The position numbers and the translations under genes are program-made. The notes beneath the pieces are model-generated. The model worked only from the letters and a program-made list of their open reading frames with translations, did no database searches and was not told where the DNA came from. From assembly GCF_001536285.1 (NCBI RefSeq), contig NZ_FAOZ01000026.1:1-64000 (forward strand): a stretch of DNA of 64,000 bases. The letters run 5' to 3'. Of this stretch, positions 1,284 through 16,176 are shown piece after piece. Position 1 is the first letter of the stretch, and each line of letters opens with the position of its first letter. Source of the DNA: Parafrankia irregularis (GTDB lineage: Bacteria > Actinomycetota > Actinomycetes > Frankiales > Frankiaceae).

Positions 1284-3287
1284 ATGCGCAGTCTTCGGCG
1301 GGGGCGCTCGCTTCGTGCCCTGTCAGCCGCGGTGGTCGCGTCGGTAGCGGCAGTGACGTTGCTCGGCTTTCTTGGAGCGAGTCCGGGCACGGCGGTCGTC
1401 CAGCTCACCGACGGTGGCTCCTGGCTGTGGAGCACGGCGAAGGGCTGGGTAACCCACGTCAACGGTCCCTCCGGCGCACCTGATTTCAATGTGGAGCTGG
1501 CGGCTTCCCGGGGCCATCGGGTCGAGCTCACGCAGGACGGCGTTTCCGTGCTGGTCACCGACCTGGAGACGGGCGTGGTGAGCCGCATCGACCCGGCGAC
1601 GATGGAGCTGGTGTCGAGATCGTTCGGGCAGTCCGGGCCGGTGCGGGTGGTGGCGCTGGGCGAGCTCGCCTATGTCATCGAGACCACTACCGGCACAGTG
1701 ACCCGGATCGATCCGCGGACACTCGACATCATCGGTGAGCAGGTCCTGCTCGGCACGCCGGTCACCGGGTCCGGTCTCGACGCCGACGGAGTTCTGTGGG
1801 TTTCCCTTGCCAGCCGCGGAGACCTCGTCGCGATCCGGGACGGGCGGGTGGCGACGACCGTTTCGGTGGCCGCACCGGGCGCCGGGCTGACGATGACGGT
1901 GGCTGCCGGGCGTCCGGTCGCCGTGGATGCCGACAGGCCCGCCCTGGTACCGGTCGCGTCGCAGGGCCTGGGCAGGACCTCGGGCCAGGCAGACGAGGAC
2001 CAGGCGGCGGAGCGACCCGTGGCTCTCCCGCCGCCAGCCGGACCGGGTCGCCTGCTTGTCGTCGCACCGGCGGTCGAAGGCCGGGTCGTGCCCGTACTGG
2101 TCGCCGGGACCTCGACGGTGCTGCTCATCGACCTGGCAGCGGACGACGGCCGCGGCTCGGTGCGGCAGATCGAGCTGGCCGGTCAGCGGCCGTCCACCGA
2201 GCTGGGCGCGCCACTGATCGCGGCGGGACGGGTGTACGTGCCTGACAACGGGTCTGGCCAGGTACTCGTCTATGACCAGGTGGCCGGGCGGTTCGACGAG
2301 CCGATCCACCTCTCCGGCGGCCCCGGGATGCTGACGCTGTCCGTTCGCAACGGCACGGTATGGGTGAACGACGTGGACGGAACGAACGCCGTCGCGGTGG
2401 ATCCCGACGGCCAGCGCCGCCGCGTTGACAAGTACGCGCCGGACGCGGTGGTGCCCGTGGTCGACACCAGCGCCAAGGCCCCGCCGCCTCCGGTCACCGT
2501 GCCGTCCGCGTCACAGCGTCAGCTTCCCCCGCCCGAGCGGAGGAGCCAGCCGCCCGGCCCGGACACGCCGACTGTCCCCGACCAGCGGACCGCTCCCATA
2601 CCGGTGCCGAACCCAACGGCCACACAGTCGCGGCGGCCGCAGCAGACGGTGACCCGATCGCCCGTGGCCCCGCCACCCACCACCACGACACCGCCTCCGG
2701 CACCGCCGGGCGCGCCGTCGGTGAGTCTCGTCTCCGGTTCCGGCGCGGTGGTCGTCACCGTGACGGCCGGAGCCGGTGGCCCCGCCACGCAGTTCGCGCT
2801 GACGACGGACGCCGGCGGCACCGCCGTTCTGCCCGGTCCGGGCCCGGTCAGCACGACGGTCGAGGCGGCCGGCTGCCAGCAGGTGCTGGCGACCGCCACG
2901 GCGACCGGCCCGGGTGGTACGTCCGTGGCCTCCGCACCCGCACAGGCGATCAGCTGTGTTCCACCGGGCCAGATCCAGGACGTCCTGATCACCGGTCACG
3001 GACCGGGCGGCGGCGGCTGGTACACGGACATCACCTGGGAGCCACCCGCGAACGCCGGGGGCGGCACGGTCGAATACGTGGTTACCGAGTCGGAATACAG
3101 TTCGGGCAGCATGCCGCCTCGCACGTATACGACAACCACTCGGACCGTGAGCAACTTCCTGGGGAATCCAGGTTATAGGAGCGTTGTAATCACCCCCAGG
3201 AACGAGGCCGGCTCGGGGCCGAGCACGACGATCAACTCGGAGAACTACACCTCGTATCGATACTACGATTCGTATGTTCCGCCGTGA
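1284..3287 (+). CDS. Secreted beta-propeller / fibronectin type III protein
   Basis: An exported surface or secreted protein of about 667 residues; enzymatic activity is not evident. It opens with arginines followed by a hydrophobic stretch, a signal peptide or N-terminal anchor. Roughly residues 45-390 carry repeats of the type VSRIDPATMELV and VTRIDPRTLDII, which recall YncE/NHL-like beta-propeller blades. A Pro/Thr-rich linker (about 395-480) leads to two fibronectin-III-like domains. The second ends in a Tyr/Ser-rich tail. ATG 1284 is preferred because it places the signal peptide at the N-terminus; GTG 1242 in the same frame is an alternative. It heads the MoxR-DUF58-transglutaminase-kinase cluster and probably is its extracellular partner. 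Confidence 0.8.
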   Translation: MRSLRRGRSLRALSAAVVASVAAVTLLGFLGASPGTAVVQLTDGGSWLWSTAKGWVTHVNGPSGAPDFNVELAASRGHRVELTQDGVSVLVTDLETGVVSRIDPATMELVSRSFGQSGPVRVVALGELAYVIETTTGTVTRIDPRTLDIIGEQVLLGTPVTGSGLDADGVLWVSLASRGDLVAIRDGRVATTVSVAAPGAGLTMTVAAGRPVAVDADRPALVPVASQGLGRTSGQADEDQAAERPVALPPPAGPGRLLVVAPAVEGRVVPVLVAGTSTVLLIDLAADDGRGSVRQIELAGQRPSTELGAPLIAAGRVYVPDNGSGQVLVYDQVAGRFDEPIHLSGGPGMLTLSVRNGTVWVNDVDGTNAVAVDPDGQRRRVDKYAPDAVVPVVDTSAKAPPPPVTVPSASQRQLPPPERRSQPPGPDTPTVPDQRTAPIPVPNPTATQSRRPQQTVTRSPVAPPPTTTTPPPAPPGAPSVSLVSGSGAVVVTVTAGAGGPATQFALTTDAGGTAVLPGPGPVSTTVEAAGCQQVLATATATGPGGTSVASAPAQAISCVPPGQIQDVLITGHGPGGGGWYTDITWEPPANAGGGTVEYVVTESEYSSGSMPPRTYTTTTRTVSNFLGNPGYRSVVITPRNEAGSGPSTTINSENYTSYRYYDSYVPP

Positions 3288-3333
3288 TTGGTCCGTACAT
3301 CGGGATCAAGCAGGAACAGTGAATGGGAGGAAC

Positions 3334-4311
3334 GTGTCGGACAGCCGGGATGAAGGTGCGGGGCGGGAGTTCGCCGCGGCCTTCCAGCGTGTGGTCGACA
3401 ATGTCGAGCTGGTGGTCCGGGGCAAGACCGAGGTGGTGCGGCAGGCGCTGACCTGCCTGCTTGCCGGCGGCCACCTGCTGGTCGAGGACGTCCCCGGCCT
3501 CGGCAAGACGTCCCTGGCGCGGTGTCTGGCGGCCTCGGTGGAGGCGACGTGCCACCGCATCCAGTTCACCCCGGACCTGCTGCCCTCGGACGTGACCGGT
3601 GTGACCGTCTACCACCAGGGCAGCGGAGAGTTCCGGTTCCACCAGGGGCCGGTGTTCGCCCATGTCGTGGTCGCCGACGAGGTCAACCGGGCGTCGCCGA
3701 AGACGCAGTCGGCACTGCTGGAGGTGATGGAGGAGGGACGGGTCACCGTCGACGGCGTGACACATCCGGTGCCGCGGCCGTTTCTCGTCGTCGCGACGCA
3801 GAACCCGGTCGATATGGACGGCACCTACCCGCTGCCGGAGGCGCAGCTCGACCGGTTCCTGATGCGGCTGCGGGTCGGTTACCCGAGCCGTGCCGCCGAG
3901 ATGGCGATTCTGCGTGACCGCCGCGGTGGCCTGCGCGTCGAGGACCTCCAGCCGGTGCTCGGCACCGACGACATTCTCGCGATGACCGCCCAGACGGCCA
4001 GCGTCCATGTCGCGGAAACCATCCACGAATATGTCGTCGATCTGGTCGCGGCGACCCGGGAGCTGCCGGGGCTGCGGCTCGGGGCGAGCCCGCGGGGCAG
4101 CATCGCGCTGCTGCGGGCGGCCCAGGTGCGGGCGGCGGCCACCGGCCGGCGGTTCGTCACCCCGGAGGACGTCAAGGCGCTCGCCGAGCCGACCCTCGCG
4201 CACCGTCTGCTGCTGGCACCGGACGCCGAACTCCGTGGCTACACGGCTGAGCGTGCCGTCGCCGAGGTCCTGGAAAGCGTCCCGGTGCCCCGAACACTTG
4301 CCGGGGTCTGA
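3334..4311 (+). CDS. MoxR-family AAA ATPase
   Basis: A cytoplasmic AAA+ ATPase of the MoxR group, which typically acts as a chaperone for DUF58/VWA partners. Visible motifs are a Walker A (VEDVPGLGKTSLA), a Walker B (VVVADEVNRASPKTQ), the sensor region VATQNPVDMDGTYPLPEAQ and a C-terminal lid. GTG 3334 is chosen for the GGGAGG just upstream (3325-3330); GTG 3319 and ATG 3274 are in-frame alternatives, the last overlapping the upstream stop. The length (about 325 residues) is normal for the family. The DUF58 gene follows within 5 bp, the usual MoxR-DUF58 pairing, so a shared transcript is very likely. Confidence 0.93.
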   Translation: MSDSRDEGAGREFAAAFQRVVDNVELVVRGKTEVVRQALTCLLAGGHLLVEDVPGLGKTSLARCLAASVEATCHRIQFTPDLLPSDVTGVTVYHQGSGEFRFHQGPVFAHVVVADEVNRASPKTQSALLEVMEEGRVTVDGVTHPVPRPFLVVATQNPVDMDGTYPLPEAQLDRFLMRLRVGYPSRAAEMAILRDRRGGLRVEDLQPVLGTDDILAMTAQTASVHVAETIHEYVVDLVAATRELPGLRLGASPRGSIALLRAAQVRAAATGRRFVTPEDVKALAEPTLAHRLLLAPDAELRGYTAERAVAEVLESVPVPRTLAGV

Positions 4312-4315
4312 CGCG

Positions 4316-5860
4316 GTGCCGGGGCCGGGCACCATGCCGAGGGCTGGCACTGCAGCAGGATCGGGGTCGGAGGCGCGGCCGGGTCCGCGGGCCGGCGGCG
4401 GGCCGTTGTCGCGGGCGCTCGGCCAGGTCACCCGGACGGGGTGGGGTGCTCTCACCGGCGCGCTCGGGTTCGGCGTGGCCGCGGTCGCGCTGCGGGCCCC
4501 GGAGATCGGGATGCTGGCGGTCGGCTGCCTGACCGCGTTCGGCGTCGGCGCGGCCTTCATGGCACGCCCGGCACGCATCGAGGTCGGTATCGAGGTCGCC
4601 CCCTCCCGGGTCGCCCGCGGCGAGCCGGCGGTCGCCAGCGTGACGGTCCGCAACGCGGGACGGCGGGCCAGCTCGTCAGCCCGGTTGGTGGTCCCCTACA
4701 GCGACCGGGCTGACGGCGGCCGGGCTGACGGCGGCCCTCCCCCCGGCCGCTCGGCTCACGGCGGTCGGGGCAACAGCGGTCAGGGTTCGCGGGTCGTGCT
4801 GCGTCCGCTGCCGGCGGGCAGCCGCCGAACCGTCGCGGTCCCGCTGCCGACGGACCGCCGCGGCGTGCTGCGGATCGGGCCGGTGGGCCTGGTGACCACC
4901 GACCCGCTCGGCCTGTTCTCCCGGTACGAGTCGCTCGGTGGGCAGGCGCAGCTCCCCGTCCATCCGGCGGCAGTGCCGCTGGCGCCGCTGCCCTCCGCCC
5001 GCTCCAGCAGCCCGGACGGCCTGCCGGTGGACAGCCGCGTCGAGGGCGGGGTGACGTTCCACGCGCTGCGCGAGTACACGCCCGGTGACGACCTGCGGCA
5101 TGTTCACTGGCGCAGCAGCGCCCGGGCCGGAACGCTGCTCGTCCGCCGGCACGTCGACCCGAGTGAACCCGTCACGACCGTCGTGCTCGACATCCGGCGG
5201 CAGGCCTACCCGGACGCCGTTGTGGACCCCGACGCGGGCGGTGGCGGCACCACGCAGGAACAGGGGCAGGGACAGGCGGCACGGGCGTTCGACACCGCGG
5301 TCGACACGGCGGCCTCCGTCGTCCTCGCGTCGACCCGGAGCAGGTTCCCGGTGCGGTTGCACACCACCGGCGGCCTGCGGCTGGACTGCCGGGACCGCCG
5401 TGCCGACGGCACCGCGGCGCTCGACGCACTGGCCGGAGCCGCCTGGACGGACGCCACGGACGCCGATGTGCCGCGCGATCCCCTGGCCGAGGCCGCGCGG
5501 AGCCGGGGCCGCCGCGGAGTGGGCTCGCTGGTGATCGTCACCGGCCGCCGCGAGATCGGCCAGCTGGCCGTGGCCGGCGCTCTGGCCGGCCAGTTCGAGC
5601 AGGTCGTGGTGCTGCGAGTCGGCGGCGTGAGCGTGGACAGCGGTGTGAGCTTGGACAGCGGTGTGAGCTTGGACGTGAGCGTGCCGGGCGCACCAGCCGG
5701 ACCCGGGCCGGACCAGACATCACCCGGTGCGTCCCAGCGGTTCGAGTCGGTCGCCGACGGCCGGCTTCGCGTCCTGGACATCACCGACACGGCGCAGCTG
5801 ACCTCGGTGTGGCCGAGCGTGGCGGGGGCACAGACCGCCGGCACGAGGCGGTCCTCATGA
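4316..5860 (+). CDS. DUF58 domain protein
   Basis: Membrane-associated DUF58 protein of about 514 residues, the usual partner of MoxR. Two hydrophobic segments lie near residues 40-85 (around GALGFGVAAVALRAPEIGML). The DUF58 signature follows near residues 255-275 (REYTPGDDLRHVHWRSSAR), then a VWA-like fold region. Near residues 440-455 there is a short in-frame repeat (GVSLDSGVSLD) in a linker. The start is GTG 4316; ATG 4334 is an alternative, and neither has a strong Shine-Dalgarno. The stop overlaps the next gene's ATG (ATGA at 5857), so the two are translationally coupled. The biochemical role of DUF58 proteins is not established. Confidence 0.9.
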   Translation: MPGPGTMPRAGTAAGSGSEARPGPRAGGGPLSRALGQVTRTGWGALTGALGFGVAAVALRAPEIGMLAVGCLTAFGVGAAFMARPARIEVGIEVAPSRVARGEPAVASVTVRNAGRRASSSARLVVPYSDRADGGRADGGPPPGRSAHGGRGNSGQGSRVVLRPLPAGSRRTVAVPLPTDRRGVLRIGPVGLVTTDPLGLFSRYESLGGQAQLPVHPAAVPLAPLPSARSSSPDGLPVDSRVEGGVTFHALREYTPGDDLRHVHWRSSARAGTLLVRRHVDPSEPVTTVVLDIRRQAYPDAVVDPDAGGGGTTQEQGQGQAARAFDTAVDTAASVVLASTRSRFPVRLHTTGGLRLDCRDRRADGTAALDALAGAAWTDATDADVPRDPLAEAARSRGRRGVGSLVIVTGRREIGQLAVAGALAGQFEQVVVLRVGGVSVDSGVSLDSGVSLDVSVPGAPAGPGPDQTSPGASQRFESVADGRLRVLDITDTAQLTSVWPSVAGAQTAGTRRSS

Positions 5861-8436
5861 GCTCCCAGCGCGCAGGCGGCCCACGCCGCGGAGTACCGCT
5901 CGCCAGCCTCGTCGCGGTGGCGCTCGCGGCGGGCCTCGCCGGTGCCGCGTTCCACCGTGGCTTCCCGGCCTCCGATCTGTTTCCCCCGCTCGTCGTGGCG
6001 GCCGTCGTGCCGGTCGTCGTCACCGCGTTGGTCGTCTTCCTCCCCCCGCTGCGCCCGCTCCGCCGCGGGGCCGGCTCCTCGCCACGGCCGCCGCGGCCGG
6101 TGTCGGTGTCTGTGGGGGTGTCGGCGCTGATCTGGCTCGCTGTCGTCCGGTTCACCCTGTTCCGGAATGGTTCTCCGCGGGTGGAGGGCGCGCTGCCGGC
6201 GGTGTGGGACGGAGTGCTCAACGGGGGCGCCCGCCTGCTCGAGACGACGCTGCCCGTCCAGGGATCGCCCGACCTGCTGGTCGTCCCGCAGGCCCTCACC
6301 TGGCTCGCCGCCCTCGCCGGCGCGGAGCTGGTGGCCAGGACCCGGGCGCCGCTCGTCCCGGCGCTGCCGGCGATCGCGGTGTTCATCGCAGGCGTGCTGC
6401 TCACCGTGCCGGGTGCCGGGTCGAATCTCGGCGTCGCGGCCGGTCTGGTGGCCGCCGTGCTGGTACTGGTGATGTGCCGCCGCGCGGAGCTCACCGGCAC
6501 CGCGGAGCTCACCGGCACCGCGGCCGCCGGTGCCAGCACCGGTGCTGGCACCGGCTCCGATGCTGGCGGTTTCGGTGCCGGTCGAGGCCGGCGGACGGGC
6601 CGGATGCGAGTGACGGCGGCGGTGCCCGCTGTCGCCGTGCTGGTGGTGACCGCGGGAATCGCGCCCCTGGCCGGACCGCTGCTCGCCGCCGCCGGTCCGG
6701 GTGACGGCGAGCGGTACGACGTCCGGGATCTGCGGCAGGTGACGCTCGATCAGCGGACGGCGCAGAGCCCCCTCGACCACGTCTCGGCCTGGCTCGGGCA
6801 TCCCGACGACGTGCTGTTCCGGGTCAGCCCGCCGGTCGCGGGCAACATCCGGCTGGCGGTGCTGGATCGCTTCGACGGCCAGCGGTGGACGTCGTCGGCG
6901 CGCTACCTGCCGGCGGGTGGCCGGGTACCGCCGGGAACCGCTGCGGACGGTGCACGAAAGCCCGCAGGCGACGCGCCTTCGGTGACGTCGCGGCTGCAGA
7001 TCGTCGCCCTGGACGGGCCGTTCCTGCCGCATCTCGACCGGCCGACCGCGCTCTCCGGATCCGGCCTGGCCGTTGACGTCCGGGACGGGACGCTGACCGC
7101 GGCGGAAGACCACACGGGAGGTGACACGGAAGGCGAGACGGACCCGGCTGACCGCCGCTACACCGTCGTCTCCGTCGCCCCCCGTGAACCGACCCCGGCG
7201 GAACTGGCGTCCGCACAGCTGCCTACCGGCGCGGATGTCAGCGAGACGCTGGCCCTCCCGCCGGGCCTGCCGAAGGTCGTGCGCGATGCGGCCCGAGCCG
7301 CCACCGGCGGGGCGATCACCCCGTTCCAACAGGCCCGCCAGCTCGAGCAGTATCTGCGGACCCTCGTCTACGATCCGTCCGCTCCGGCCGGGCACACCTA
7401 CGGACACCTCGCGTACTTCCTCGGCACCAGCCGCGCCGGAACCTCCGAGCAGTTCGCCGCCGCCTACGCCGTGTTCGCCCGGGTCGTCGGGCTACCCAGC
7501 CGGGTGGTCGTCGGGTTCAGCCCGAAGCCGGACCGGGCCGGCGGCGACACCGCCACCGGCGATGTCAGGGCGGGTGATGTCGGGTCGGGTGATGTCAGGG
7601 CGGGTGATGTCCTGGTCTGGCCGGAGATCAGGTTCGAAGGGCTCGGCTGGGTGCCGTTCTACCCGACTCCGGCCGCGGCGGCGGACAACGGCGGCCAGGT
7701 CGCCACCACGGCCCAGGGCGAGCCGTCGGAGCGCGCGCAGCGGGTCGCGGAGGCCGCCGCGGTGCCGGCGCCACCGACGGCGCCGAACGAGGTGCCCCCG
7801 GCCAGGACGGACTCGAACCGGTCCGTGCTCCTCCTCGCCGGCCTGGGCGCCGCCGCGCTGCTCGTCATCGCCGCGGTGGGCTACCTCACCGCCGCGGCGG
7901 CGGCACCGAGGCTGCGACGGCGGCGCCGTGCGCGGGCGGCGCGCGCCCGGGAGCGAGTTGTCGGTGCCTGGCAGGACACTCTGGACGCACTCGACCTCGC
8001 GGGAGTCCCCGTGCCGGCCTCGGCGACGTCGACCGAGATCGTCACGATGGCCGGGGCCGGGGCCGGAGTCCGAGTCGCGGCCGGCATCGAGACCGGTTCC
8101 GCGGTCAGGACCGGCCTGACGGCCCCGGCCGGTTCCGCGGCCGCGATGGGCTCCGAGGCTCAGGCCGGTTCCGCGGCGATCGCCGACCTCGCGGCGCTCG
8201 TCACGGCGGCGCTGTTCGCCGGCGGCGAGGTGCATGAGGCCGACGCCGACGCCGCCTGGCGCCACGCCGACCGGGTGCGTGCCGAGCTGCGGGCGTCGAC
8301 CTCGCGGACCGGGCGCGTCCGCCGGGCGCTGGCACCCGGCCGGCTGGCTCACCGCCGGTCGACGCTGTCCCGCCCGCCGGGTTCATCCCACCGGTCGAAT
8401 GCCGCGCAATCGGGTGAAAGAGGGAACGGCCGGTGA
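5857..8436 (+). CDS. TgpA-type membrane transglutaminase-like protein, triad lost
   Basis: A membrane protein of 859 residues with about six N-terminal helices, a large extracytoplasmic transglutaminase-like domain (about 470-610), another helix near residue 655 and a cytoplasmic tail. TgpA-type enzymes use a Cys-His-Asp triad. Here the Cys site reads AGTSEQFAAAYAVFARVVG (Ser530 for Cys), the HAW motif reads LVW (Leu586 for His), and the FDPTP motif reads FYPTP (Tyr602 for Asp). The fold motifs around these sites are intact, so this looks like a non-catalytic homologue. A GDV-rich micro-repeat (7558-7610) sits between the Cys and His sites. It is coupled to DUF58 (ATGA) and to the kinase (GTGA). 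Confidence 0.9.
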   Translation: MSSQRAGGPRRGVPLASLVAVALAAGLAGAAFHRGFPASDLFPPLVVAAVVPVVVTALVVFLPPLRPLRRGAGSSPRPPRPVSVSVGVSALIWLAVVRFTLFRNGSPRVEGALPAVWDGVLNGGARLLETTLPVQGSPDLLVVPQALTWLAALAGAELVARTRAPLVPALPAIAVFIAGVLLTVPGAGSNLGVAAGLVAAVLVLVMCRRAELTGTAELTGTAAAGASTGAGTGSDAGGFGAGRGRRTGRMRVTAAVPAVAVLVVTAGIAPLAGPLLAAAGPGDGERYDVRDLRQVTLDQRTAQSPLDHVSAWLGHPDDVLFRVSPPVAGNIRLAVLDRFDGQRWTSSARYLPAGGRVPPGTAADGARKPAGDAPSVTSRLQIVALDGPFLPHLDRPTALSGSGLAVDVRDGTLTAAEDHTGGDTEGETDPADRRYTVVSVAPREPTPAELASAQLPTGADVSETLALPPGLPKVVRDAARAATGGAITPFQQARQLEQYLRTLVYDPSAPAGHTYGHLAYFLGTSRAGTSEQFAAAYAVFARVVGLPSRVVVGFSPKPDRAGGDTATGDVRAGDVGSGDVRAGDVLVWPEIRFEGLGWVPFYPTPAAAADNGGQVATTAQGEPSERAQRVAEAAAVPAPPTAPNEVPPARTDSNRSVLLLAGLGAAALLVIAAVGYLTAAAAAPRLRRRRRARAARARERVVGAWQDTLDALDLAGVPVPASATSTEIVTMAGAGAGVRVAAGIETGSAVRTGLTAPAGSAAAMGSEAQAGSAAIADLAALVTAALFAGGEVHEADADAAWRHADRVRAELRASTSRTGRVRRALAPGRLAHRRSTLSRPPGSSHRSNAAQSGERGNGR

Positions 8437-10277
8437 CTGGAAGCAGCGGGGAGGGGGCGACCGACCCCTCCCCGGAGCATGACCCAACGGGGCAGGGGGC
8501 GATCGACGGAGGCCTGTCAGCCACCGGCGGACATGATCCGCTCATCAACGGCTACCGGTCCTTCACACCGATCGGGCAGGGCGGTTTCAGCATCGTCTAC
8601 ACCGCCTACCAGGACAGGTTCGACCGCACCGTGGCCGTCAAGGTCATCAGCTCGGACCTGCGGGACTCCGCGGCGGCACGCCGGTTCACCCGCGAGTGCC
8701 GGGTCGTCGGCAAGCTCACCGGGCACCCGAACATCATCACGGTCTTCGAGGCCGGTTCCACGGCCGACCGCCGCCCGTTCATCGCGATGCAGTACCTGCC
8801 CGGCGGTTCCGTCGCCGACCTGCTGCGGCGGAACGGGCCGCTCGGCGTCGCCGACACCCTGCGCATCGGGGCCGCCATCGCGGACGCCCTGCAGGCGGCG
8901 CACAAGGCGAAGATCCTCCACCGTGATGTGAAACCCGGCAACATCCTGCTGTCCGAACGCGGCGACCCGGTACTGAGCGACTTCGGGATCGCCAGCCGCG
9001 GGTTCGGCGCCGACATGTCGGCCAGCCAGGACGCGTTCACCCCGTCGTTCGCGGCACCGGAGGTCCTGCGCGGTGACGAGCCCAGCGTCGCCTCCGATCT
9101 GTACGGGCTGGGCGCGACGATGTACGCGATGCTGGCCGGAACCCCGCCGTTCGGGGTCCGCCCCGGCGACAGCCTGGCCACGATGATGCTGCGGGCGCTC
9201 ACCGAGGAGCTCGCCCCGATCCGTCGTGGGGACGTCCACTCCGATGTCGACGGCCTGCTGCGCGCGCTGCTCGCCCGCGATCCGTCGGCGCGGCCGCGTG
9301 ACGCCGCCACGGCCGCGGACGAGCTGCGCCGGCTGCACTCGCTCGAGGGGCTGACCCGGCGCCCCGCCCCGCGCCCTCCCGCCGACCCGCCACCTGCTCC
9401 AGCCGATCCATCACCCGGGGCCGCACGCCCGGCCCCCGCTCCAGAAGAGATCGTTCCGCCGAGCACCCTCGGCCCGGGCAACCCCGGCGCCCCCGACCGC
9501 TCCCGCACTTCGGACGACGCTCCCCCGGCAGCGCGCTCCGTCGCGCCCGACCGCGCCGCCGCGGCGTCCGCCCCGCTGTCGGAGCACACGACCGCACCAG
9601 GCCCCGCCCCCGCGGCGGCGCCCGCGCATATTCCGGAGGATCCGGAGGAAGACGCGGGAGCACCGGCCCACCAACCCGGTCACCAGCTTCATCACGGTCT
9701 GGAGGATCTGAGTGCCGCGGGGCTCGCCGGAGCGCGCCCGCCGGGACCGCCCGCCGACGAGGTGTCCGGGCAGCGGGATCCGGACCTGGACGACGACCGC
9801 CCGATGTCCGCCTGGCGCCGGTGGATCCGGATCACCGTGCCGGTGGCCGTGGGGCTGGCCGTGGCGATGCTGCTGGTGATCGGGCTGCTCGTGCCGGACG
9901 GCGACAGTCCGCCAGGACCGGGGTCGGCGTCCTCGACGTTGACTGCCTCCGGGGCCCCGGACCCAACGGATCCCAGCTCCGCCCGGCCCTCCGGGCTGCG
10001 GGCCGTCGACAACGGCACCGTCATCAGGCTGACCTGGACGAACGGATCCGCTCCTGGGGACCTGGTGCTACGAGTGTTCGACCCGGCCACCGCGATCGCC
10101 GCCATCGTCCTGCCCGCCGGCGCGACCGTGCACGAGCTGAAGGACGTGGATCCCGAGGCGCGGTACTGCTTCACCGTCGGCGCCATTCTCGGAGTGACCA
10201 GGGAGAGCGGCGTCGAAGGGGCGTGGTCGGACTTCGCCTGCATCCGAGACGCCACCCCTCCCCCGACCCAGAAGTGA
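8433..10277 (+). CDS. Transmembrane Ser/Thr protein kinase
   Basis: PknB-type receptor kinase of 614 residues. The kinase domain (about 37-300) shows a glycine loop (IGQGGFSIVYTA), Lys70 in AVKVI, the catalytic loop HRDVKPGN (Asp165), DFG (Asp183) and APEVL, so it should be active. A long Pro/Ala-rich juxtamembrane linker follows, then one membrane helix (near ITVPVAVGLAVAMLLVIGLL, about 467-487). The extracellular C-terminal domain of about 120 residues resembles a fibronectin-III fold (IRLTWTNGSAPGDLVLRVF). The GTG start overlaps the upstream stop. The extracellular domain resembles part of the secreted protein at 1284, so the kinase may sense or organise that surface assembly. Confidence 0.95.
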   Translation: MTGSSGEGATDPSPEHDPTGQGAIDGGLSATGGHDPLINGYRSFTPIGQGGFSIVYTAYQDRFDRTVAVKVISSDLRDSAAARRFTRECRVVGKLTGHPNIITVFEAGSTADRRPFIAMQYLPGGSVADLLRRNGPLGVADTLRIGAAIADALQAAHKAKILHRDVKPGNILLSERGDPVLSDFGIASRGFGADMSASQDAFTPSFAAPEVLRGDEPSVASDLYGLGATMYAMLAGTPPFGVRPGDSLATMMLRALTEELAPIRRGDVHSDVDGLLRALLARDPSARPRDAATAADELRRLHSLEGLTRRPAPRPPADPPPAPADPSPGAARPAPAPEEIVPPSTLGPGNPGAPDRSRTSDDAPPAARSVAPDRAAAASAPLSEHTTAPGPAPAAAPAHIPEDPEEDAGAPAHQPGHQLHHGLEDLSAAGLAGARPPGPPADEVSGQRDPDLDDDRPMSAWRRWIRITVPVAVGLAVAMLLVIGLLVPDGDSPPGPGSASSTLTASGAPDPTDPSSARPSGLRAVDNGTVIRLTWTNGSAPGDLVLRVFDPATAIAAIVLPAGATVHELKDVDPEARYCFTVGAILGVTRESGVEGAWSDFACIRDATPPPTQK

Positions 10278-10309
10278 GCCGGTGTGCCAGTCGTCGACAG
10301 GCCGGCTCA
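10275..10309. terminator. Bidirectional hairpin between convergent genes
   Basis: Perfect 8-bp inverted repeat: TGAGCCGG at 10275-10282 and CCGGCTCA at 10302-10309, with a 19-nt loop. The left arm includes the kinase stop codon and the right arm includes the stop codon of the convergent SARP gene. A very similar element lies at 29542-29575. Confidence 0.6.
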
Positions 10310-13300
10310 GGTGCCGGGCGACAGGCGGCGGGCGGCGGCGCGGGCGGCGAAGAGCGGCATGCCGAGACGTTCGTTGACCGCCTGGGCGGCGTCGAGTGCG
10401 CGGCGGGCCCGCTCGTGGTCGCCGACGATGGCGGCGAGCGTGCCGACGTACAGCTGCCCGGAGCCCATGCAGACGCCGCCCGGGGCGAACACGATCACGG
10501 CGTCGGCCCAGGGTTCCACCCGTTCCAGCAACGGCCGGGCCCAGTCTCGGGCGTCGGATCGGGTGCGGGCATGCCAGCACCACTCGGTCAGCAGGATCAG
10601 CGAAGCGGTCGCCGGCGGGCCGGAGCCGATCGCGGGCAGCCCCGGGCGCAGCAGCGGCGCCAGGACGGCGAGGGAGGCATCCGCGTCACCGGCCTGTGCC
10701 AGGCCGAGGGCCCGCACGATCAGCCAGCCGGGATGGTCCGTCGGTGCCGGAGCCGCCGCTTCGGGCAGCGCCGCCGCCAGCGCCCCAAGCTCCCAGGCGA
10801 CCATGCCACCGATCGCCTCGACGGACGCCCGGGCCACCGCGGCGGCCTGGGCGGAGGCGGTGAGCAGCGGGGAGAAGACCGACTCCGCCTGCCGGCGGGC
10901 GTCGTCGAGACGTCCCGACATCAGGTCACGCATCGCCTTCCACCAGCAGGCGACGAGGGTGAAATCGTCGTAGCGCAGCCGGCGGGCGGTGGCGGCGAGC
11001 AACTGGGCCTGCCCGTCCGCCTCGGCGAGCTCACCCAGTTCGAGCAGGGTCAGGGCGCGCAGCTGCGCCACGGTGAGGCGGGCACCGACGTCACCGGCGG
11101 CCAGTGCGCCGAGGCGGTCGAGCACGGCCAGGCGCCGGGCTGCCAGGTCGGGGCGCCACCAGGTCACGAAGCGGGCCAGCAGCACCATCCGCTCCAGGTC
11201 GGCCGAGGCATCCTCGGTCGCCTCGAACACCGCCTGCGCCGCGGTCAGGTGTTGCTCGGCGCGCCGGAGATCGCCGGCGAGCGCGAAGCGTGCCGCGCAG
11301 GCCGCCTCGACGGCTCCCGCCGTGGCCGGGGTCAGTCCGGGCAGGCGGCGTGCTTCGAGGAGGCGGGCGAGAACGTCCGGTGCGGTCTCGCCGGCCATCG
11401 ACCAGTAGCCGGTGACGGGACCGCCCGCGGCTTCGAGCGCGGCCTGGGCCGCGAGATCGGACTCGCCGGCGAGCGTCGCCTCGTCGTAGGTGGTCGCCAG
11501 CAGCTCGGCGGACTCGGACAGGCGCCCGGCGCGGTACAGGGCCCGACCGGCAGCCAGGCCCAGCCGCGCCCGCTGCCGTGTCGGTGACAGCTGTTTGGGT
11601 GACAGCTGTGGGGGTGACAGCTGTGTCGGTGGTGGCGTCTGCGGCCGCGAGAAATGCGGCGGTTGTGGACCTGCCGTGGTGGGAGTCCGGTCCAGGCCGC
11701 GGCGGGCCCAGCTGACCGCGCCGTCGAAGTCCGCGACGACGAGGGCTGCCTCGGCCGCGGCGAGAGCGGCGCCCGCGGCCCGCGGATCATCGCCGCGCAG
11801 CAGATGGTCCGCGACCGCCTGCACCCCGGCGCCGCCCGCCAGCAGCACGTCGGCGCAGCGTCGATGCCAGTCGGCCTGCAGCCGCCGGGTCGTGCGGGCG
11901 ACCAGGCTCTCCCGGACCAGCGCATGCGCGAACCGCACGACGCCCGGCTCATCGGCGATCAGTCCCGCGCGCACGGCGTTGTCGAACGCCTCGTCGAGGG
12001 CGGCGGACGTCGTTACCTGATCACGACCGCCGCGAGACGAACCGCTCGACGATCCGTCGTCGGCGACCTGGGCGATGACATCCCAGGCGACATCGTCGCC
12101 GAGCACGGCGGCCACGCGCAGCAGTCCGCGCGCGGGCTCGCCGAGCGCGGCGACCCGCGAGCTGATCACGTCGATGACCCGGTCGGGCAGGTCACGCGCG
12201 GGACGTCCGGCGGCGACCAGCCGGGTGAGCTCGGTCATGAAGAACGCGTTGCCGGCGCTGCGCTCGGCCACCACCGCGGCGACCGCGGCGACGTCCGCCG
12301 CCGCGGCCTCCGAAGCCGTGATGTCCGAAGCCGTGATGTCCGTAGCCGTGGTATTCCCTGGCGCGACGGGTGACCCGGGCCCTCGGGCGGGAATCGCGCC
12401 CACCCGCGGCATGATCGCGGCGACGTATTCGGCGACCGCGGTGGAGGCAAGCGGCCGAAGCCGAAGGTGGTCGCCCGGCAGCCGACCGAGCTCGGCCAGG
12501 AACGCCTCCAGGGCATCCGAGGCCCCCGCGGAGTCCGCGGGGCCGGCCGGATCACCGCGATCACCGCGATCAGCGCCGCTGCCACCACCGGCATCGGCGG
12601 CGCCACCCAGATACTCGTCGCGGACCGTGACGCTGATCAGCAGGGGCCGGTCGGCGTCGGTGCGGCCCCGGACGAGAGCGGCCAGCACCCGAAGTGACGC
12701 CGCGTCAGCCCACTGCAGGTCGTCGACCACGATCTTGGACAGCCCGGCGCCGGCCGCCGGGTCCGGGCCCTGGCCGGGGGCCTGCCCGAGGACCTGACCG
12801 GCTGCCGGGACAGGCCCCGGCTCGGCACCGAGCGCCGCCGCGAGCAGGAGCGCCCACGAACGAACGGATGCCTCCGCCGGCGGTGCCAGCGCCGGAAACA
12901 GTGCCCGGCACAGGTCGTACGGGGCGGCGTCGTCGCCTGGAAGGCAGCGTGCCCGGCCATGCACTGCGCTCGGCGCTGCGCCCCGAACCGTCCCGTCGGC
13001 AGCGGGAAGCGTCGCCAGGACCTCCGTGACCAGGCGTGTCTTGCCGACTCCGGCGGGGCCGGACACCACCAGCGCCCGCGCGCCGCCTGCCGGTAGATCG
13101 ACGACGGCCCGCGCCCGTTCCAGCTCGGCGGCACGGCCGACGAACGGCGACGACGCCCGTGCCAGGGCAGTCGGTGGCGCTGCGAGGGCTGGCTGTCGCG
13201 CCGACGCCAGCGGCGGCGGCGGCGAAAGTACCAGCGACGAAGGTGCAGGCGGTGCAGGCTGCGACCGGGGCGGGACATCGGTCCGGGCCGAGGGCGCGGA

Positions 13301-14104
13301 CACCGTGGAGCGGCGTCCAGGCCACCAGCCGGGACGTGCCGCGGCCGGGTCCGCCTGGTGCACGGCGGCCTCGACCGCGCGCAGCGTCGGGCCCGGGTCC
13401 AGGCCCAGCTCGTCGCGCAGCAGGGCGCGAGCCCGGGCGAGCTCGGACAGTGCCTCGACCTGGCGGTCGGCGCGGTAGAGGGCAAGCGCCCGCATCGCCA
13501 CCAGGCTCTCGCGGGTCGGCTGGGCGGCGACGACGGCCGCGAGCTCCCCCAGCAGTCCCCGATGGTCACCCAGGTCGAGGCGGGCCAGCGTGTGGCGCTC
13601 GACGGCGAGCAGCCGCTCCTCCCGCAGCCGGCTGGGCTGTTCGGGAAGGGCGTCGTCGAGCAGGCCTCCGTAGGGCTCGTCGCCGCGCCAGCGGCCCAGG
13701 GCGGCCCGCCCGGCCGCGGCGGCCAGCTCCGGGTGGCCGTCACGGAGATGCGCCTCGAGCCGCGCCGCGTCGTGGCGGAAGGCGGCGGAGTCCAGCTGAC
13801 GGACCGGGTCGGTGAGGATCAGCTGGTAGCCGGTGGCCCTGGTGACCAGCAGACGTGCCTGCGCCGCCGGAACGTCAGGCTCGAGGCGACGCCGCAGCCG
13901 GGAGATCCACCCCTGCAGGGTGGTGGCGGCTGTGGCCGGTGGCTGCCCCGACCACAGCTGGTCGGCCAGCCGGGCCGGTGACAGCGGTGCCTGGCACTGG
14001 GCCACCAGCAGCGCGAGCAGGGTGGCGGCCCGCCCGACACCGAGGTCGAGATCGCGCCCCTGGACGTCCCACGCCGTCACCGCGCCCAACACCCCGAGAC
14101 GCAT
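10307..14104 (-). CDS. SARP/AfsR-like regulator with BTAD and ATPase domains
   Basis: A large (1265-residue) transcriptional regulator of the SARP/AfsR type. Residues 1-95 form an OmpR-like winged helix, and about 100-245 a bacterial transcriptional activator domain (RALALYRADRQVEALSEL). A linker leads to an AAA/NTPase module with FVGRAAELERAR and P-loop GPAGVGKTRLV near residues 325-365. The C-terminal half is TPR-like helical repeats. The linker near 11580-11640 encodes a small QLSP repeat. The start is ATG 14104; a TATTGT box ends 6 nt upstream, so the transcript is probably leaderless. Such regulators usually control secondary metabolism, but no biosynthetic cluster is adjacent, so its targets are unknown. 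Confidence 0.92.
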   Translation of the reverse strand: MRLGVLGAVTAWDVQGRDLDLGVGRAATLLALLVAQCQAPLSPARLADQLWSGQPPATAATTLQGWISRLRRRLEPDVPAAQARLLVTRATGYQLILTDPVRQLDSAAFRHDAARLEAHLRDGHPELAAAAGRAALGRWRGDEPYGGLLDDALPEQPSRLREERLLAVERHTLARLDLGDHRGLLGELAAVVAAQPTRESLVAMRALALYRADRQVEALSELARARALLRDELGLDPGPTLRAVEAAVHQADPAAARPGWWPGRRSTVSAPSARTDVPPRSQPAPPAPSSLVLSPPPPLASARQPALAAPPTALARASSPFVGRAAELERARAVVDLPAGGARALVVSGPAGVGKTRLVTEVLATLPAADGTVRGAAPSAVHGRARCLPGDDAAPYDLCRALFPALAPPAEASVRSWALLLAAALGAEPGPVPAAGQVLGQAPGQGPDPAAGAGLSKIVVDDLQWADAASLRVLAALVRGRTDADRPLLISVTVRDEYLGGAADAGGGSGADRGDRGDPAGPADSAGASDALEAFLAELGRLPGDHLRLRPLASTAVAEYVAAIMPRVGAIPARGPGSPVAPGNTTATDITASDITASEAAAADVAAVAAVVAERSAGNAFFMTELTRLVAAGRPARDLPDRVIDVISSRVAALGEPARGLLRVAAVLGDDVAWDVIAQVADDGSSSGSSRGGRDQVTTSAALDEAFDNAVRAGLIADEPGVVRFAHALVRESLVARTTRRLQADWHRRCADVLLAGGAGVQAVADHLLRGDDPRAAGAALAAAEAALVVADFDGAVSWARRGLDRTPTTAGPQPPHFSRPQTPPPTQLSPPQLSPKQLSPTRQRARLGLAAGRALYRAGRLSESAELLATTYDEATLAGESDLAAQAALEAAGGPVTGYWSMAGETAPDVLARLLEARRLPGLTPATAGAVEAACAARFALAGDLRRAEQHLTAAQAVFEATEDASADLERMVLLARFVTWWRPDLAARRLAVLDRLGALAAGDVGARLTVAQLRALTLLELGELAEADGQAQLLAATARRLRYDDFTLVACWWKAMRDLMSGRLDDARRQAESVFSPLLTASAQAAAVARASVEAIGGMVAWELGALAAALPEAAAPAPTDHPGWLIVRALGLAQAGDADASLAVLAPLLRPGLPAIGSGPPATASLILLTEWCWHARTRSDARDWARPLLERVEPWADAVIVFAPGGVCMGSGQLYVGTLAAIVGDHERARRALDAAQAVNERLGMPLFAARAAARRLSPGT

Positions 14105-14110
14105 CGGGCC

Positions 14111-14116
14111 ACAATA
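14111..14116 (-). promoter_or_regulatory. -10 box of the SARP gene (leaderless)
   Basis: On the minus strand TATTGT ends 6 nt before the ATG at 14104, with no Shine-Dalgarno between. This spacing fits a transcript starting at the initiation codon. Confidence 0.5.
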
Positions 14117-14295
14117 GGGCTGCCGTCGGGCCAGGCGCACCTGCCTGCCGTGGTCGGCTTCCCGACCGGTACGTGGCCGACCGGTACGTGGCCGACCGGC
14201 GCCTTCGCGGCCTGTGCCCTCAGGGATCTCCGTACCAGCGGCTCGTACCAGGCGTCCACCAGGGCCGTACCAGCCGCCCTGGTGAAGGTCGTCCC

Positions 14296-16176
14296 ATGAC
14301 CTCCACGGAAATCCCCGCCCACGGCGGATCACGCTCGAACCGACCTGGACCCGCGGCCACCGGCGCGCCCTGCGGTCCCTCTCCCTCTTCCTCCGCTGTT
14401 TCCGCACTCGGTTCTGCCGCCGCCAGCCGGACCGCTGACGGGCGACGACCGCGTCGCGAGCTTGTGGTGTTCCTCGCCGTGACCTTCGGGCTGACGGCTC
14501 TGAGCACGGCGGTGGCGCTGGGCCAGTCCGTCGATGTCCGCCATATCGGCGACGCCTCCGGCCTCGGGCAGACCGCCATGTACGCGCAGGCGCTCTGGCC
14601 GCTGCTCGGCGCGGTGGCAGCCCGGCTGGCGGTGCGGCGCCCCCACCGTCCCGGTACTGGCGCCGACCAGGCTGGTCCTGCCGCCACCAGAGCAGCTGCT
14701 GCCCCCGGCGGTGCCGACGGCGCTGCCGCCCGGGACGGATGGGGGTGGCGGCGGCCGTCCGCGCGCGTTCTGGGCCTGGCCTGGCTCTACGGGGTGAGCT
14801 ACCCGCTGCTGGGCGGACTCGTGTTGTGGATGACCGGGCTCGGCGGCTTCGACGGTGCCGGACTCGCCGACACCTTCGCGCTCGGCGGCCTACCCACTGC
14901 CGTCGGCACGGCGCTGGCCGTGGTGCTGGGTCTGACCGTGGGCTGCGCGCCCTACGTCCTGCTGGCGATCGGGGAGGAGGTCGGCTGGCGCGGCGTGCTC
15001 GTCCCACATCTGGCGGAAGGGAACTCGCCGGCCAGGGTCGTGCTGCTCGGCGGCCTGATCTGGTCGGCGTTCCACCTTCCGATCATCGTCGCCCTGGGCG
15101 GGACTCCGGACGGCGTGCCGACGCCGGTCGCCGCCGTCTGCTTCACGGTCGCGCTGACCGCGCTGGGCGCGACGCTGGCCTGGCAGCGGCTGCGCCACGG
15201 CCTGTGGCCGGCGGTGGTCACCCATGCCGCGGTGAACGCGACGCTCTACACGGTCGTCGAGCCGGCCACGACTGACCGGGCCCACACCGGCTGGTTCGGA
15301 ACGGAGACCGGCCTGCTGCTCGCGGTGGCCTCGGTCGTCGCGGCGGTCTGCTGGTCGCGGCGCGCGCCGCTGCGCCCCTCCGCAGCCGGCGCGGTCGTCG
15401 CGGACATCGCGGACATCGCGAACGCCGTGGACGCCGTGGACATCACGGCAACCCCGTCGGCCGCCTCGACGCAGGCCACGCCGAAGCAGGCAGCCCCGGC
15501 ACAGGTCGGCGGCCCGGCACGGGCCAGCGAGCCCATCGACACCTCGGACATGCAGGTCGTGCATGCCATGTTCCGCCGGCAGTTCGGCCTCCTGCCCGAT
15601 CTCGTCCGTGCCAGCCGGCCGGGGGACAGCGGCCAGGCGACAGCGGTCGCGGACCATCTGGACCTGCTGCTGGCCCTGCTGCGCGAGCACCACAGCGGCG
15701 AGGACAGGGTGCTGTGGCCCCTGCTGGTCGAACGGGCGCCGACGCTCACGGCGGCGGCGACGCTCGTCCTGGTCGGGCGCCAGCATGACGGTGTCGACCA
15801 GCTGGCCGACGCCGTCCGCCAGGCTGCGCAGGCCTGGCGCCGCGGGGCCGCCCTGGCGGACCGGGACCGGCTGGCCGGCCTGCTGGAGGATCTCGGCGTG
15901 GCCCTGGAGGACCACCTCGACGCCGAGGAACGCGAGATCGTCCCGCTGGCAGCCACCCTGCTCACCGCGACCGAGTGGGCGGCGCTCGGCCGGGACGGCT
16001 CGTTGAAGCTGTCCCCACGCCAGCTGCTGCTCTCGCTCGGGATGATCGAGGACGGTGCCGGGCCGCAGGGACTGGCACGGATGACCTCCGAGCTGCCATC
16101 GGTCGCCCGGCCGCTCGTCGCGGGCCTCGCCCGCCGGGTGCACCGCCGGACCATGCGAACACTGACCCGAGCCTGA
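14296..16176 (+). CDS. CPBP (CAAX-type) membrane protease fused to hemerythrin
   Basis: A 626-residue two-part protein. The N-terminal part (about 55-360) is a polytopic CPBP/Abi-family intramembrane protease. It has EEVGWRGVL (Glu227, Glu228, Arg232), the second motif FHLP (Phe259-His260) and a later HAAVNA. After an Ala/Asp-rich linker (DIADIANAVDAVDI), residues about 418-560 form a hemerythrin (HHE) domain. Candidate di-iron ligands are His423, His465/466, Glu469, His497, His540 and Glu544/545. The start is ATG 14296 with GGTGAAGG upstream. It is divergent from the SARP gene. The hemerythrin domain suggests oxygen, iron or NO sensing that gates proteolysis; that is inference. Both halves look intact. 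Confidence 0.9.
   Translation: MTSTEIPAHGGSRSNRPGPAATGAPCGPSPSSSAVSALGSAAASRTADGRRPRRELVVFLAVTFGLTALSTAVALGQSVDVRHIGDASGLGQTAMYAQALWPLLGAVAARLAVRRPHRPGTGADQAGPAATRAAAAPGGADGAAARDGWGWRRPSARVLGLAWLYGVSYPLLGGLVLWMTGLGGFDGAGLADTFALGGLPTAVGTALAVVLGLTVGCAPYVLLAIGEEVGWRGVLVPHLAEGNSPARVVLLGGLIWSAFHLPIIVALGGTPDGVPTPVAAVCFTVALTALGATLAWQRLRHGLWPAVVTHAAVNATLYTVVEPATTDRAHTGWFGTETGLLLAVASVVAAVCWSRRAPLRPSAAGAVVADIADIANAVDAVDITATPSAASTQATPKQAAPAQVGGPARASEPIDTSDMQVVHAMFRRQFGLLPDLVRASRPGDSGQATAVADHLDLLLALLREHHSGEDRVLWPLLVERAPTLTAAATLVLVGRQHDGVDQLADAVRQAAQAWRRGAALADRDRLAGLLEDLGVALEDHLDAEEREIVPLAATLLTATEWAALGRDGSLKLSPRQLLLSLGMIEDGAGPQGLARMTSELPSVARPLVAGLARRVHRRTMRTLTRA

Follow-up and report, generated by a model that had tools for sequence, protein, structure and literature searches.

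A TgpA-like membrane protein of Parafrankia irregularis with a triad-less transglutaminase core, probably a binding or sensing subunit of a kinase-linked MoxR-DUF58 operon

The window considered here is the whole stretch of 64,000 nucleotides of Parafrankia irregularis DNA that was analysed, and it encodes a transglutaminase-like membrane protein that has apparently given up its chemistry and kept its fold. Judged from sequence comparison and a structural model, the protein has lost all three residues of the catalytic triad, has an ectodomain free of cysteine, retains the TgpA fold, has a core under purifying selection, and belongs to a group with one old, Cys-less origin. The genes around this group point in the same way to a kinase and/or an FN3-like protein as its regular company, joined by PP2C and FHA-like proteins in one fully read operon. 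We regard the protein as a pseudo-transglutaminase whose probable role is that of an extracellular subunit, for binding or sensing, in a PFNA-type MoxR-DUF58 operon linked to a kinase.

The gene lies in a frame from 5809 to 8436 on the + strand. The frame opens at a GTG (5809) and encodes 875 amino acids from there; the residue numbers of the protein (P0001) are counted from this GTG. The likelier start, an ATG at 5857 that shares bases with the upstream stop codon ending at 5860, gives a gene at 5857..8436. Two Pfam domains exceed their family cut-offs: TgpA_N (PF11992; 5893..7122, +, residues 29-438; E 9.7e-12, 45 bits, cut-off 30) and Transglut_core (PF01841; 7288..7665, +, residues 494-619; E 2e-16, 60.6 bits, cut-off 23). 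Up to an E of 0.01 the protein matches these two families and no other, and the domains of RloB-type proteins, for which Pfam has families of their own, are not among its matches. The domain pair, the fold, and the MoxR-DUF58 neighbours, which are the usual company of the family in the loci read here, place the protein in the TgpA family. Its model over residues 296-651 (mean pLDDT 84.8) matches the periplasmic domain of Pseudomonas aeruginosa TgpA (PA2873; PDB 6G49; PMC3507681) with a Z of 23.9, an rmsd of 3.3 and 265 aligned residues. The two proteins are alike in their membrane location, their TgpA_N and Transglut_core domains and their ectodomain fold; TgpA, however, retains Cys, His and Asp, whereas the window protein lacks all three and any other cysteine in the ectodomain. 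In the available passages of the TgpA paper, transglutaminase assays were run on its purified domain (PMC3507681).

Alignment with canonical homologues and a profile alignment both place Ser546 (7444..7446, +) at the site of the catalytic Cys, Leu602 (7612..7614, +) at that of the His, and Tyr618 (7660..7662, +) at that of the Asp, columns in which Pseudomonas TgpA has C, H and D. These are residues 530, 586 and 602 in the numbering from ATG 5857, under which an earlier, sequence-only reading had reported the loss of the triad, and both alignments confirm it. The same reading had described the context of the three sites as conserved, and the anchors G544, E547-Q548, A550, W604, E606, W614 and P619 are indeed intact. 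The Cys-His-Asp(Glu) triad of transglutaminase or papain-like cysteine enzymes is thus missing from its usual columns, and the claim also holds against a cysteine displaced to another part of the domain: a search of the ectodomain (residues 296-651) found none, and since the sole Cys of the protein, residue 223, lies outside it, an alternative cysteine triad is absent there. Among the other 42 sequences compared, two ectodomain cysteines each were seen in L022, L023 and L025 and one each in the five Cys-bearing sequences and in L249, with zero in the remainder. A serine-based triad was rejected because the His site of the window protein is a Leu and because only 27 of 81 Cys-less rows have a Ser where the Cys would be.

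The triad-less state is conserved when the protein is aligned with its nearest relatives. In a whole-protein search, all 25 best-scoring non-self loci (L010-L034, one per genome) carry Ser-Leu-Phe/Tyr; the four weakest loci returned (L035-L038) carry other combinations. A tree was then made of loci picked from ranked match lists, not at random, of which 139 were supplied; L075, L076 and L218 yielded no row and L078 yielded two, giving 137 rows. On this tree a branch with a support of 100 has 81 of the 82 Cys-less proteins on one of its sides, in a clade with sampled members from at least ten families; all 55 Cys-bearing rows retain His and Asp/Glu. The window protein has a non-Cys residue at the catalytic site, has the His of a GH motif that marks the clade, and falls on its Cys-less side. 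A second core tree, with Pseudomonas TgpA as the outgroup, used 137 columns and has a long outgroup branch. We take the Cys-less group to be old, well-preserved and apparently dead enzymes of actinobacteria, the bifidobacterial Tgm among them.

The genes on either side are what give this group its likely setting. Upstream in the window is P0005 (1242..3287, +), a secreted-type protein with an FN3-like C-terminal part and, by eye only, propeller-like repeats at the N-terminus; it matches zero Pfam families, and its match to the FN3 chain 2crm reaches no better than an E of 0.042. For the relatives of P0005 in L082 and L120, the fn3 matches have E values of 8.1e-4 and 7.9e-5 and stay under the family cut-off. 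A MoxR-type AAA+ ATPase follows (frame 3274..4311, +, with a start that may be slightly downstream; AAA_3 E 2.7e-62, AAA_lid_2 E 3.8e-21), then a DUF58 protein (frame as listed 4007..5860, +; DUF58 E 5.4e-6) whose true start is probably near the MoxR stop, at about 4.3 kb. Downstream of the TgpA-like gene is a Ser/Thr protein kinase (8433..10277, +; Pkinase E 1.7e-46) in which VAVK, HRDVKPGN and DFG motifs can be seen by eye, as can a membrane segment and a tail resembling FN3.

A Ser/Thr kinase and/or FN3-like gene lies nearby in 59 of the 65 Cys-less rows whose windows are full, compared with 0 of 41 Cys-bearing ones; this contrast (Fisher p 2.6e-23) is essentially one deep evolutionary event, and the p value is therefore not a count of independent trials. 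The count dropped 31 of the 137 rows, whose windows were too short. A first survey had relied on profiles grown from the window proteins only and missed many Ig/FN3 proteins, and an FN3 profile was added, made of nine domains that Pfam had located, every one of them in a Cys-less locus. Six full-window Cys-less rows (L079, L080, L092, L212, L213 and L217) have neither partner by these profiles. In L148 the operon reads, in order, FN3/Big_9, MoxR, DUF58, pseudo-transglutaminase, RDD-FHA, PP2C, weak FHA and kinase. The Cys-bearing copies are mostly found in plain MoxR-DUF58 loci, with one near mraZ in 11 of 12 genomes. MraZ was sought directly after Pfam returned zero families for three ORFs by the Cys-bearing L095 and for two by L069, the Cys-bearing copy in the genome of the window.

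The closest known arrangement is the PFNA operon of Bifidobacterium, which according to the passages available consists of pkb2, fn3, aaa-atp, duf58 and tgm, with prpC, a hypothetical gene and fha added in some species (PMC6803598, PMC8430577, PMC10688814). The same passages have Pkb2 phosphorylating the MoxR of the operon, call Tgm "presumably a cysteine protease", and propose host-signal roles for the bifidobacterial operon only; among the open-access passages at hand, none states that a PFNA-type Tgm lacks catalytic residues. Both loci bring together a surface protein, MoxR, DUF58, a TgpA-like protein and a Ser/Thr kinase, and in both the TgpA-like protein is without Cys and His. They differ in that pkb2 is listed first in the published passages, whereas the window's kinase comes last, and in that the PFNA surface protein has FN3 domains, whereas P0005 has no confident FN3 match. 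Bifidobacterial Tgm groups with the Cys-less proteins on the tree and lacks Cys and His in all 49 genomes with a Tgm-type match, among 52 matching genomes overall, as found with a profile built from Cys-less rows only, on which a strongly diverged Cys-bearing Tgm could rank low. The three other genomes gave only a weaker match of another type, in frames of about 1,500 residues; one such frame, L232, from a different genome, has C-H-D. A separate scan with two patterns gave 80 of 80 Cys-less among the best 80 of 123 confirmed stretches, a figure that is biased because one of the patterns contained the changed Ser; nine of the 80 have Gly or Asp at the Cys site and do not fit that pattern, and the count of 49 of 49 was obtained without it.

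Several other explanations of the missing triad have to be weighed against a binding or sensing role. With three of three catalytic residues gone, the domain might be a pseudogene-like remnant on its way out. The earlier reading had already argued that this was not random decay, and the comparison with the close relative G001 agrees with it: omega is 0.089 in the core (0.072 without the repeat loop), the lowest of the protein, vs. 0.42 in the N-terminal part, 0.41 in the beta part, 1.06 in the linker and 0.59 in the tail. Against G005 the core value is 0.40 (0.33 without the loop), which is not below the 0.31 of the beta part. As the core is the most constrained part in the close pair, as the frames of the top matches are open with zero stops, and as all 25 top non-self loci and a clade of many families have the same triad-less state, decay is hardly credible, and the protein is better described as a conserved non-catalytic one. 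Taken strictly, the reading would also make the three losses one coordinated change special to this protein, and here it does not stand. Ser-Leu-Phe/Tyr is fixed in the nearest relatives, as such a change would have it; the same clade, however, holds the intermediates A-H-E, S-H-E, A-H-D, D-H-D and S-D-D, and the tree calls for a single Cys change in the clade, with at least 10 His and at least 13 Asp/Glu label changes overall. The loss of Cys looks old and single, and the losses of His and Asp later and repeated, which makes a coordinated loss peculiar to the window protein highly improbable.

The domain might instead have turned to another chemistry, as a non-cysteine enzyme working through conserved residues such as His529 and Glu547. 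His529, in the GH motif (7393..7395, +), comes close to being a marker of the Cys-less clade (80 of 82 rows, vs. 13 of 55 Cys-bearing rows, one of which has a gap), and Glu547 is invariant across 81 Cys-less rows. But Glu547 and Gln548 are kept in 52 and 54 of the 55 Cys-bearing rows and so need not be catalytic, and no consistent set replaces the triad: in Cys-less proteins the Cys site is S, D, G, A, E, P, T or V, and the His site is L, H, T, E, Q, S, A and others. We find a new enzyme very unlikely. A better case can be made for a dead core kept purely as a scaffold, needed as a folded ectodomain for pairing with DUF58/MoxR or a partner, with a cleft that binds nothing. The residues that Cys-less and Cys-bearing proteins have in common (G, R, W, E, P) may be fold anchors, and the substitutions at the three sites vary by subclade, as if the chemistry of the cleft were immaterial. 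On the other hand, in 81 Cys-less rows the columns lying up to 5 positions from the triad are better conserved than the remaining core (1.39 vs. 2.31 bits; 0 of 10,000 permutations gave a difference as large) while the triad columns themselves vary (2.2, 3.03 and 2.73 bits), and the near-invariant His529 of the clade suggests some function on that face. The Cys-bearing rows are likewise conserved near the site (0.81 vs. 1.63 bits), so the pattern is evidence of retention, not of a new function. A scaffold alone seems to us unlikely. The earlier claim of a binding or scaffold role within the MoxR-DUF58-kinase cluster fares better and, in its binding form, is the best reading of what such a protein would do.

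For a binding or sensing subunit, the following scheme can be drawn. The papain/transglutaminase-fold ectodomain of a multi-pass protein would keep its fold and the surroundings of the old site with the chemistry gone, and the old cleft would bind a peptide or protein ligand without turnover; the operon's own FN3-type surface protein and cell-wall peptide are the candidates. The signal could then pass through the membrane helices and the cytosolic tail to DUF58/MoxR, the state of MoxR being set by kinase and phosphatase, and the enzymatic job would stay with the Cys-bearing paralogue near mraZ. One may extend the scheme to the class as a whole: actinobacterial "transglutaminases" of this kind would be a non-enzyme receptor subunit whose cleft captures an FN3/Ig-surface or cell-wall peptide, MoxR-DUF58 would act on the cytosolic side to remodel this receptor, and the outcome would be read by kinase, phosphatase and FHA proteins, with PFNA as one branch of an older system and not a bifidobacterial invention. 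This wider proposal is possible but rather doubtful, and we offer it tentatively.

There are precedents for a transglutaminase fold in non-catalytic service. RloB of Pseudomonas, in the passages available, is an inactive transglutaminase fused to seven transmembrane helices and is itself a genetic partner in its operon (PMC12239564); it resembles the window protein as an operon-encoded, multi-pass membrane protein with an outward-facing dead domain, and differs in its operon, which has a retropepsin and an ATP-grasp protein. Erythrocyte protein 4.2 (EPB42) is described in the excerpts at hand as a transglutaminase fold with a non-catalytic role and its catalysis lost (PMC10318531), a loss that it and other inactive papain-fold proteins have in common with the window protein. 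Its structures are among the lower fold matches of the model (Z about 7.5), which alone means little, and it is eukaryotic and shows no relation to the window protein in operon or membrane architecture.

Should the kinase-linked branch indeed be catalytically dead, work that looks for its enzymatic substrates is aimed at the wrong target, and what the protein binds becomes the question worth asking. One Cys-bearing and six dead forms stand side by side in the window's genome, and a comparison between them is directly testable.

A last point concerns the micro-repeat between the Cys and His sites, which the earlier reading had taken as adding to the divergence. The repeat is real, a 15-bp coding unit in about 3.4 copies with 88% matches (7561..7611, +) that ends directly before the Leu602 codon; it adds little, being a length-variable loop. 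A functional repeat was rejected, since its length differs among near relatives (G001 lacks ten residues at this point), it is absent from the aligned Ser-Leu-Phe relatives, and it forms a low-confidence loop of the model, with a mean pLDDT of 52 over model residues 281-290 and of 69 over 291-300.

The TgpA-like gene occupies an open frame on the forward strand at 5809-8436, and residues are numbered here from the GTG at 5809 (875 residues), although the ATG at 5857, from which the sequence-only reading had counted, is the best start. The protein matches both TgpA_N (E 9.7e-12) and Transglut_core (E 2e-16) over the Pfam cut-offs. In an alignment with canonical relatives, Ser546, Leu602 and Tyr618 occupy the catalytic Cys, His and Asp sites, which confirms the earlier claim that all three triad residues are replaced (Ser530, Leu586 and Tyr602 counted from the ATG). 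Among solved structures, the family profile picked out Pseudomonas TgpA (E 1.6e-20), which has C, H and D at these three positions. There is no alternative Cys anywhere in the ectodomain (residues 296-651), and the micro-repeat described between the Cys and His sites is real, with 3.4 copies of a 15 bp unit at 7561-7611.

An AlphaFold2 model of residues 296-651, based on an alignment of 43 sequences, reached a mean pLDDT of 84.8 and a pTM of 0.87. Its top solved matches were both entries of the TgpA periplasmic domain (for 6G49, Foldseek E 8.8e-15; Z 23.9 over 265 residues, rmsd 3.3), and the predicted ectodomain keeps the fold despite the triad loss; the sequence-only reading had held that the fold motifs are kept. 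Human protein 4.2 (EPB42), described as catalytically inactive (PMC10318531), appeared among the lower structural matches with a Z of ~7.5, which by itself may reflect no more than a shared arrangement.

The triad-less state is shared by close relatives, the point on which that reading had asked for a check. Searching 58 genomes with the whole protein gave 30 loci, each from a different genome. Besides the window, 25 of them (L010-L034) all carry Ser-Leu-Phe or Ser-Leu-Tyr across the Cys, His and Asp sites, and the four weaker matches (L035-L038) have other states. Among 106 distinct cores, 58 carry the Cys (56 CHE and 2 CHD, the letters giving the Cys, His and Asp sites in order) and 48 do not: SLF 24, SLY 9, AHE 4, SHE 3, and AHD, DHD, PMD, SDD, SHQ, SVY, TLH and VFD once each. 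With a D-H-D relative as the query, 40 further loci were fetched with their flanks; all 40 lack the Cys, having Asp, Glu, Gly or Ala instead, and the His is sometimes present and sometimes replaced. Three ectodomains (L022, L023 and L025) are Cys-free except for two Cys each, perhaps a disulfide of one subgroup.

The window's own genome has nine Transglut_core matches. One is a Cys-bearing TgpA (CHE, L069), and six are Cys-less and linked to MoxR and DUF58: L070 (AHE), L071 (AHD), L072 (SLF), L073 (AHE), L074 (VFD) and the window protein (SLY). No MoxR or DUF58 was detected near the remaining two, L075 (CHD) and L076 (state unclassified). The six Cys-less loci beside one Cys-bearing copy, with their differing substitutions, form a paralogue expansion, for which different ligands might be the reason.

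The order of the losses was read from a quick tree of the core, minus the triad columns, plus MoxR, in which 139 loci gave 137 rows (55 Cys-bearing, 82 Cys-less). The Cys label changes twice on this tree, against a shuffled mean of 43.1, and a deep branch (SH-aLRT 100) sets the 55 Cys-bearing rows, along with the Cys-less L092, apart from the other 81. When Pseudomonas TgpA was used as the outgroup with the core alone, the 81 grouped as a clade with support 91 inside the Cys-bearing rows; the small number of columns and the length of the outgroup branch limit this tree. The His site requires 10 changes and the Asp/Glu site 13. Both residues are kept in 55/55 Cys-bearing rows; among the 82 Cys-less rows, 31 lack both, 19 lack only His, 7 lack only Asp/Glu, 18 have both and 7 are gapped at the Asp site. 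Since every Cys-bearing row keeps the other two residues, and since Cys changes are few and His and Asp changes many, the Cys was lost first, most simply once for the whole clade, with His and Asp/Glu following repeatedly; the window protein represents a late stage of this loss. L092 (G137:C1:4194500-4207500), an S-H-Q core nested among Cys-bearing rows with no MoxR or kinase detected nearby, reads as an independent Cys loss.

The surroundings of the old active site have been retained. In the 81 Cys-less rows, columns within 5 of the triad score 1.39 bits versus 2.31 elsewhere (lower being more conserved; 0 of 10,000 permutations as large), and the triad columns themselves vary (2.2, 3.03 and 2.73 bits). 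Cys-bearing rows are also more conserved near the site (0.81 versus 1.63 bits), and the pattern therefore indicates retention, not gain. The His of the GH motif (529 in the window protein), present in 80/82 Cys-less rows (all but L080 and L092) and 13/55 Cys-bearing ones, is a candidate for a new role. In the comparison with the relative in G001, the core has an omega of 0.089, or 0.072 when the repeat loop is excluded; the values elsewhere are 0.42 (N-terminal membrane part), 0.41 (beta part), 1.06 (linker) and 0.59 (tail). The contrast weakens with the more distant G005, where the beta part (0.31) falls below the core (0.40; 0.33 without the loop) and the others lie at 0.54 to 0.79. The G001 comparison, in which the core is the lowest of all parts, agrees with the earlier view that this is not random decay: the triad-less core is being retained, not lost.

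In the window, the genes for the surface protein P0005, MoxR, DUF58, the TgpA-like protein and a Ser/Thr kinase follow one another on one strand with overlapping frames. Among rows with enough flank, an FN3-like protein and/or a kinase lies near 59/65 Cys-less cores (18 both, 38 FN3-like only, 3 kinase only) versus 0/41 Cys-bearing ones; neither was detected near L079, L080, L092, L212, L213 and L217, all Cys-less with sufficient flank. Since the Cys-bearing and Cys-less groups parted in what is essentially a single old event, these counts make one strong contrast rather than many independent ones. The D-H-D locus L148 reads FN3/Big_9, MoxR, DUF58, pseudo-transglutaminase, RDD-FHA, PP2C, weak FHA and kinase, the two FHA matches being at and just under the curated cut-off. 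In 11 of the 12 genomes searched, by contrast, a C-H-E TgpA is encoded no more than 5 kb from mraZ; in the exception, G036, no core of the family was found within ~9 kb of mraZ. Some Cys-bearing copies, several of them on short contigs, have no detected MoxR. At L203:7716-12314, directly 3' of a Cys-less TgpA gene, is a frame with FHA and FtsK/SpoIIIE domains that resembles the type VII secretion ATPase EssC, so operons of this kind may be connected with secretion. Adjoining the window operon, on the reverse strand at 10307-15007, is a long frame whose inner part, by eye, resembles an AfsR/SARP-type regulator that has an ATPase domain.

A similar gene set has been described as the PFNA operon of Bifidobacterium, with pkb2, fn3, aaa-atp, duf58 and tgm, joined in some species by prpC, a hypothetical gene and fha (PMC6803598, PMC8430577, PMC10688814); it is reported in 77 of 99 species (PMC10688814). 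In 14 genomes of the bifidobacterial family, located by a 16S primer pattern, Tgm was found in 11, with Ser at the Cys site in 11/11, His in 0/11, and Tyr or His at the Asp site. The best 80 of 123 stretches in a named scan (70 Bifidobacterium, one other Bifidobacteriaceae, nine Cellulomonas/Actinotalea) had Cys in 0/80, His in 0/80 and Asp in 5, one lacking the Asp-site segment, in a set biased because one scan pattern contained Ser. A profile search matched 52 of 61 Bifidobacterium genomes, 49 with a Tgm-type match; all 49 were read, giving Cys 0/49, His 0/49, Asp kept in 2, one without the segment, and the GH-motif His in 49/49. The protein upstream in L235 has Ig-like and FN3 domains, in line with the published fn3, and pkb2 did not turn up in the fetched flanks of the tgm loci.

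Dead transglutaminases are already described, among them protein 4.2 (PMC10318531) and RloB of Pseudomonas (PMC12239564), as are TgpA and the PFNA operon. What is new, as far as the literature searched shows, is that the kinase-linked TgpA branch sampled in the class Actinomycetes, bifidobacterial Tgm included, has no catalytic Cys throughout, often with the whole triad gone, and descends most simply from one early loss. Lost catalytic residues, a kept fold, constraint, shared ancestry and kinase/FN3 company are shown by the sequence analysis for this pseudo-transglutaminase. As to its role, the dead cleft would bind an extracellular ligand, the signal would pass through the membrane to DUF58 and MoxR, and the state of MoxR would be set by the kinase and phosphatase. 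Pkb2 is reported to phosphorylate the MoxR of the PFNA operon.

Some bifidobacterial loci depart from the common form. The tgm frame of L281 (Bifidobacterium canis), like that of L354, stops before the Asp-site segment, with a Cys at the His site, through a frameshift, a stop or a real truncation. Seven divergent tgm (L300, L302, L332, L333, L340, L353 and L356) carry Gly or Asp in place of the catalytic Cys, yet in the 137-row tree L300 and L302 cluster with the remaining bifidobacterial rows. Some bifidobacteria also gave a second match in the profile search, to a separate protein in a long frame (~1,500 residues) that includes a stretch resembling Transglut_core; the only one read, L232, is C-H-D, and an active transglutaminase may therefore coexist with the dead Tgm.
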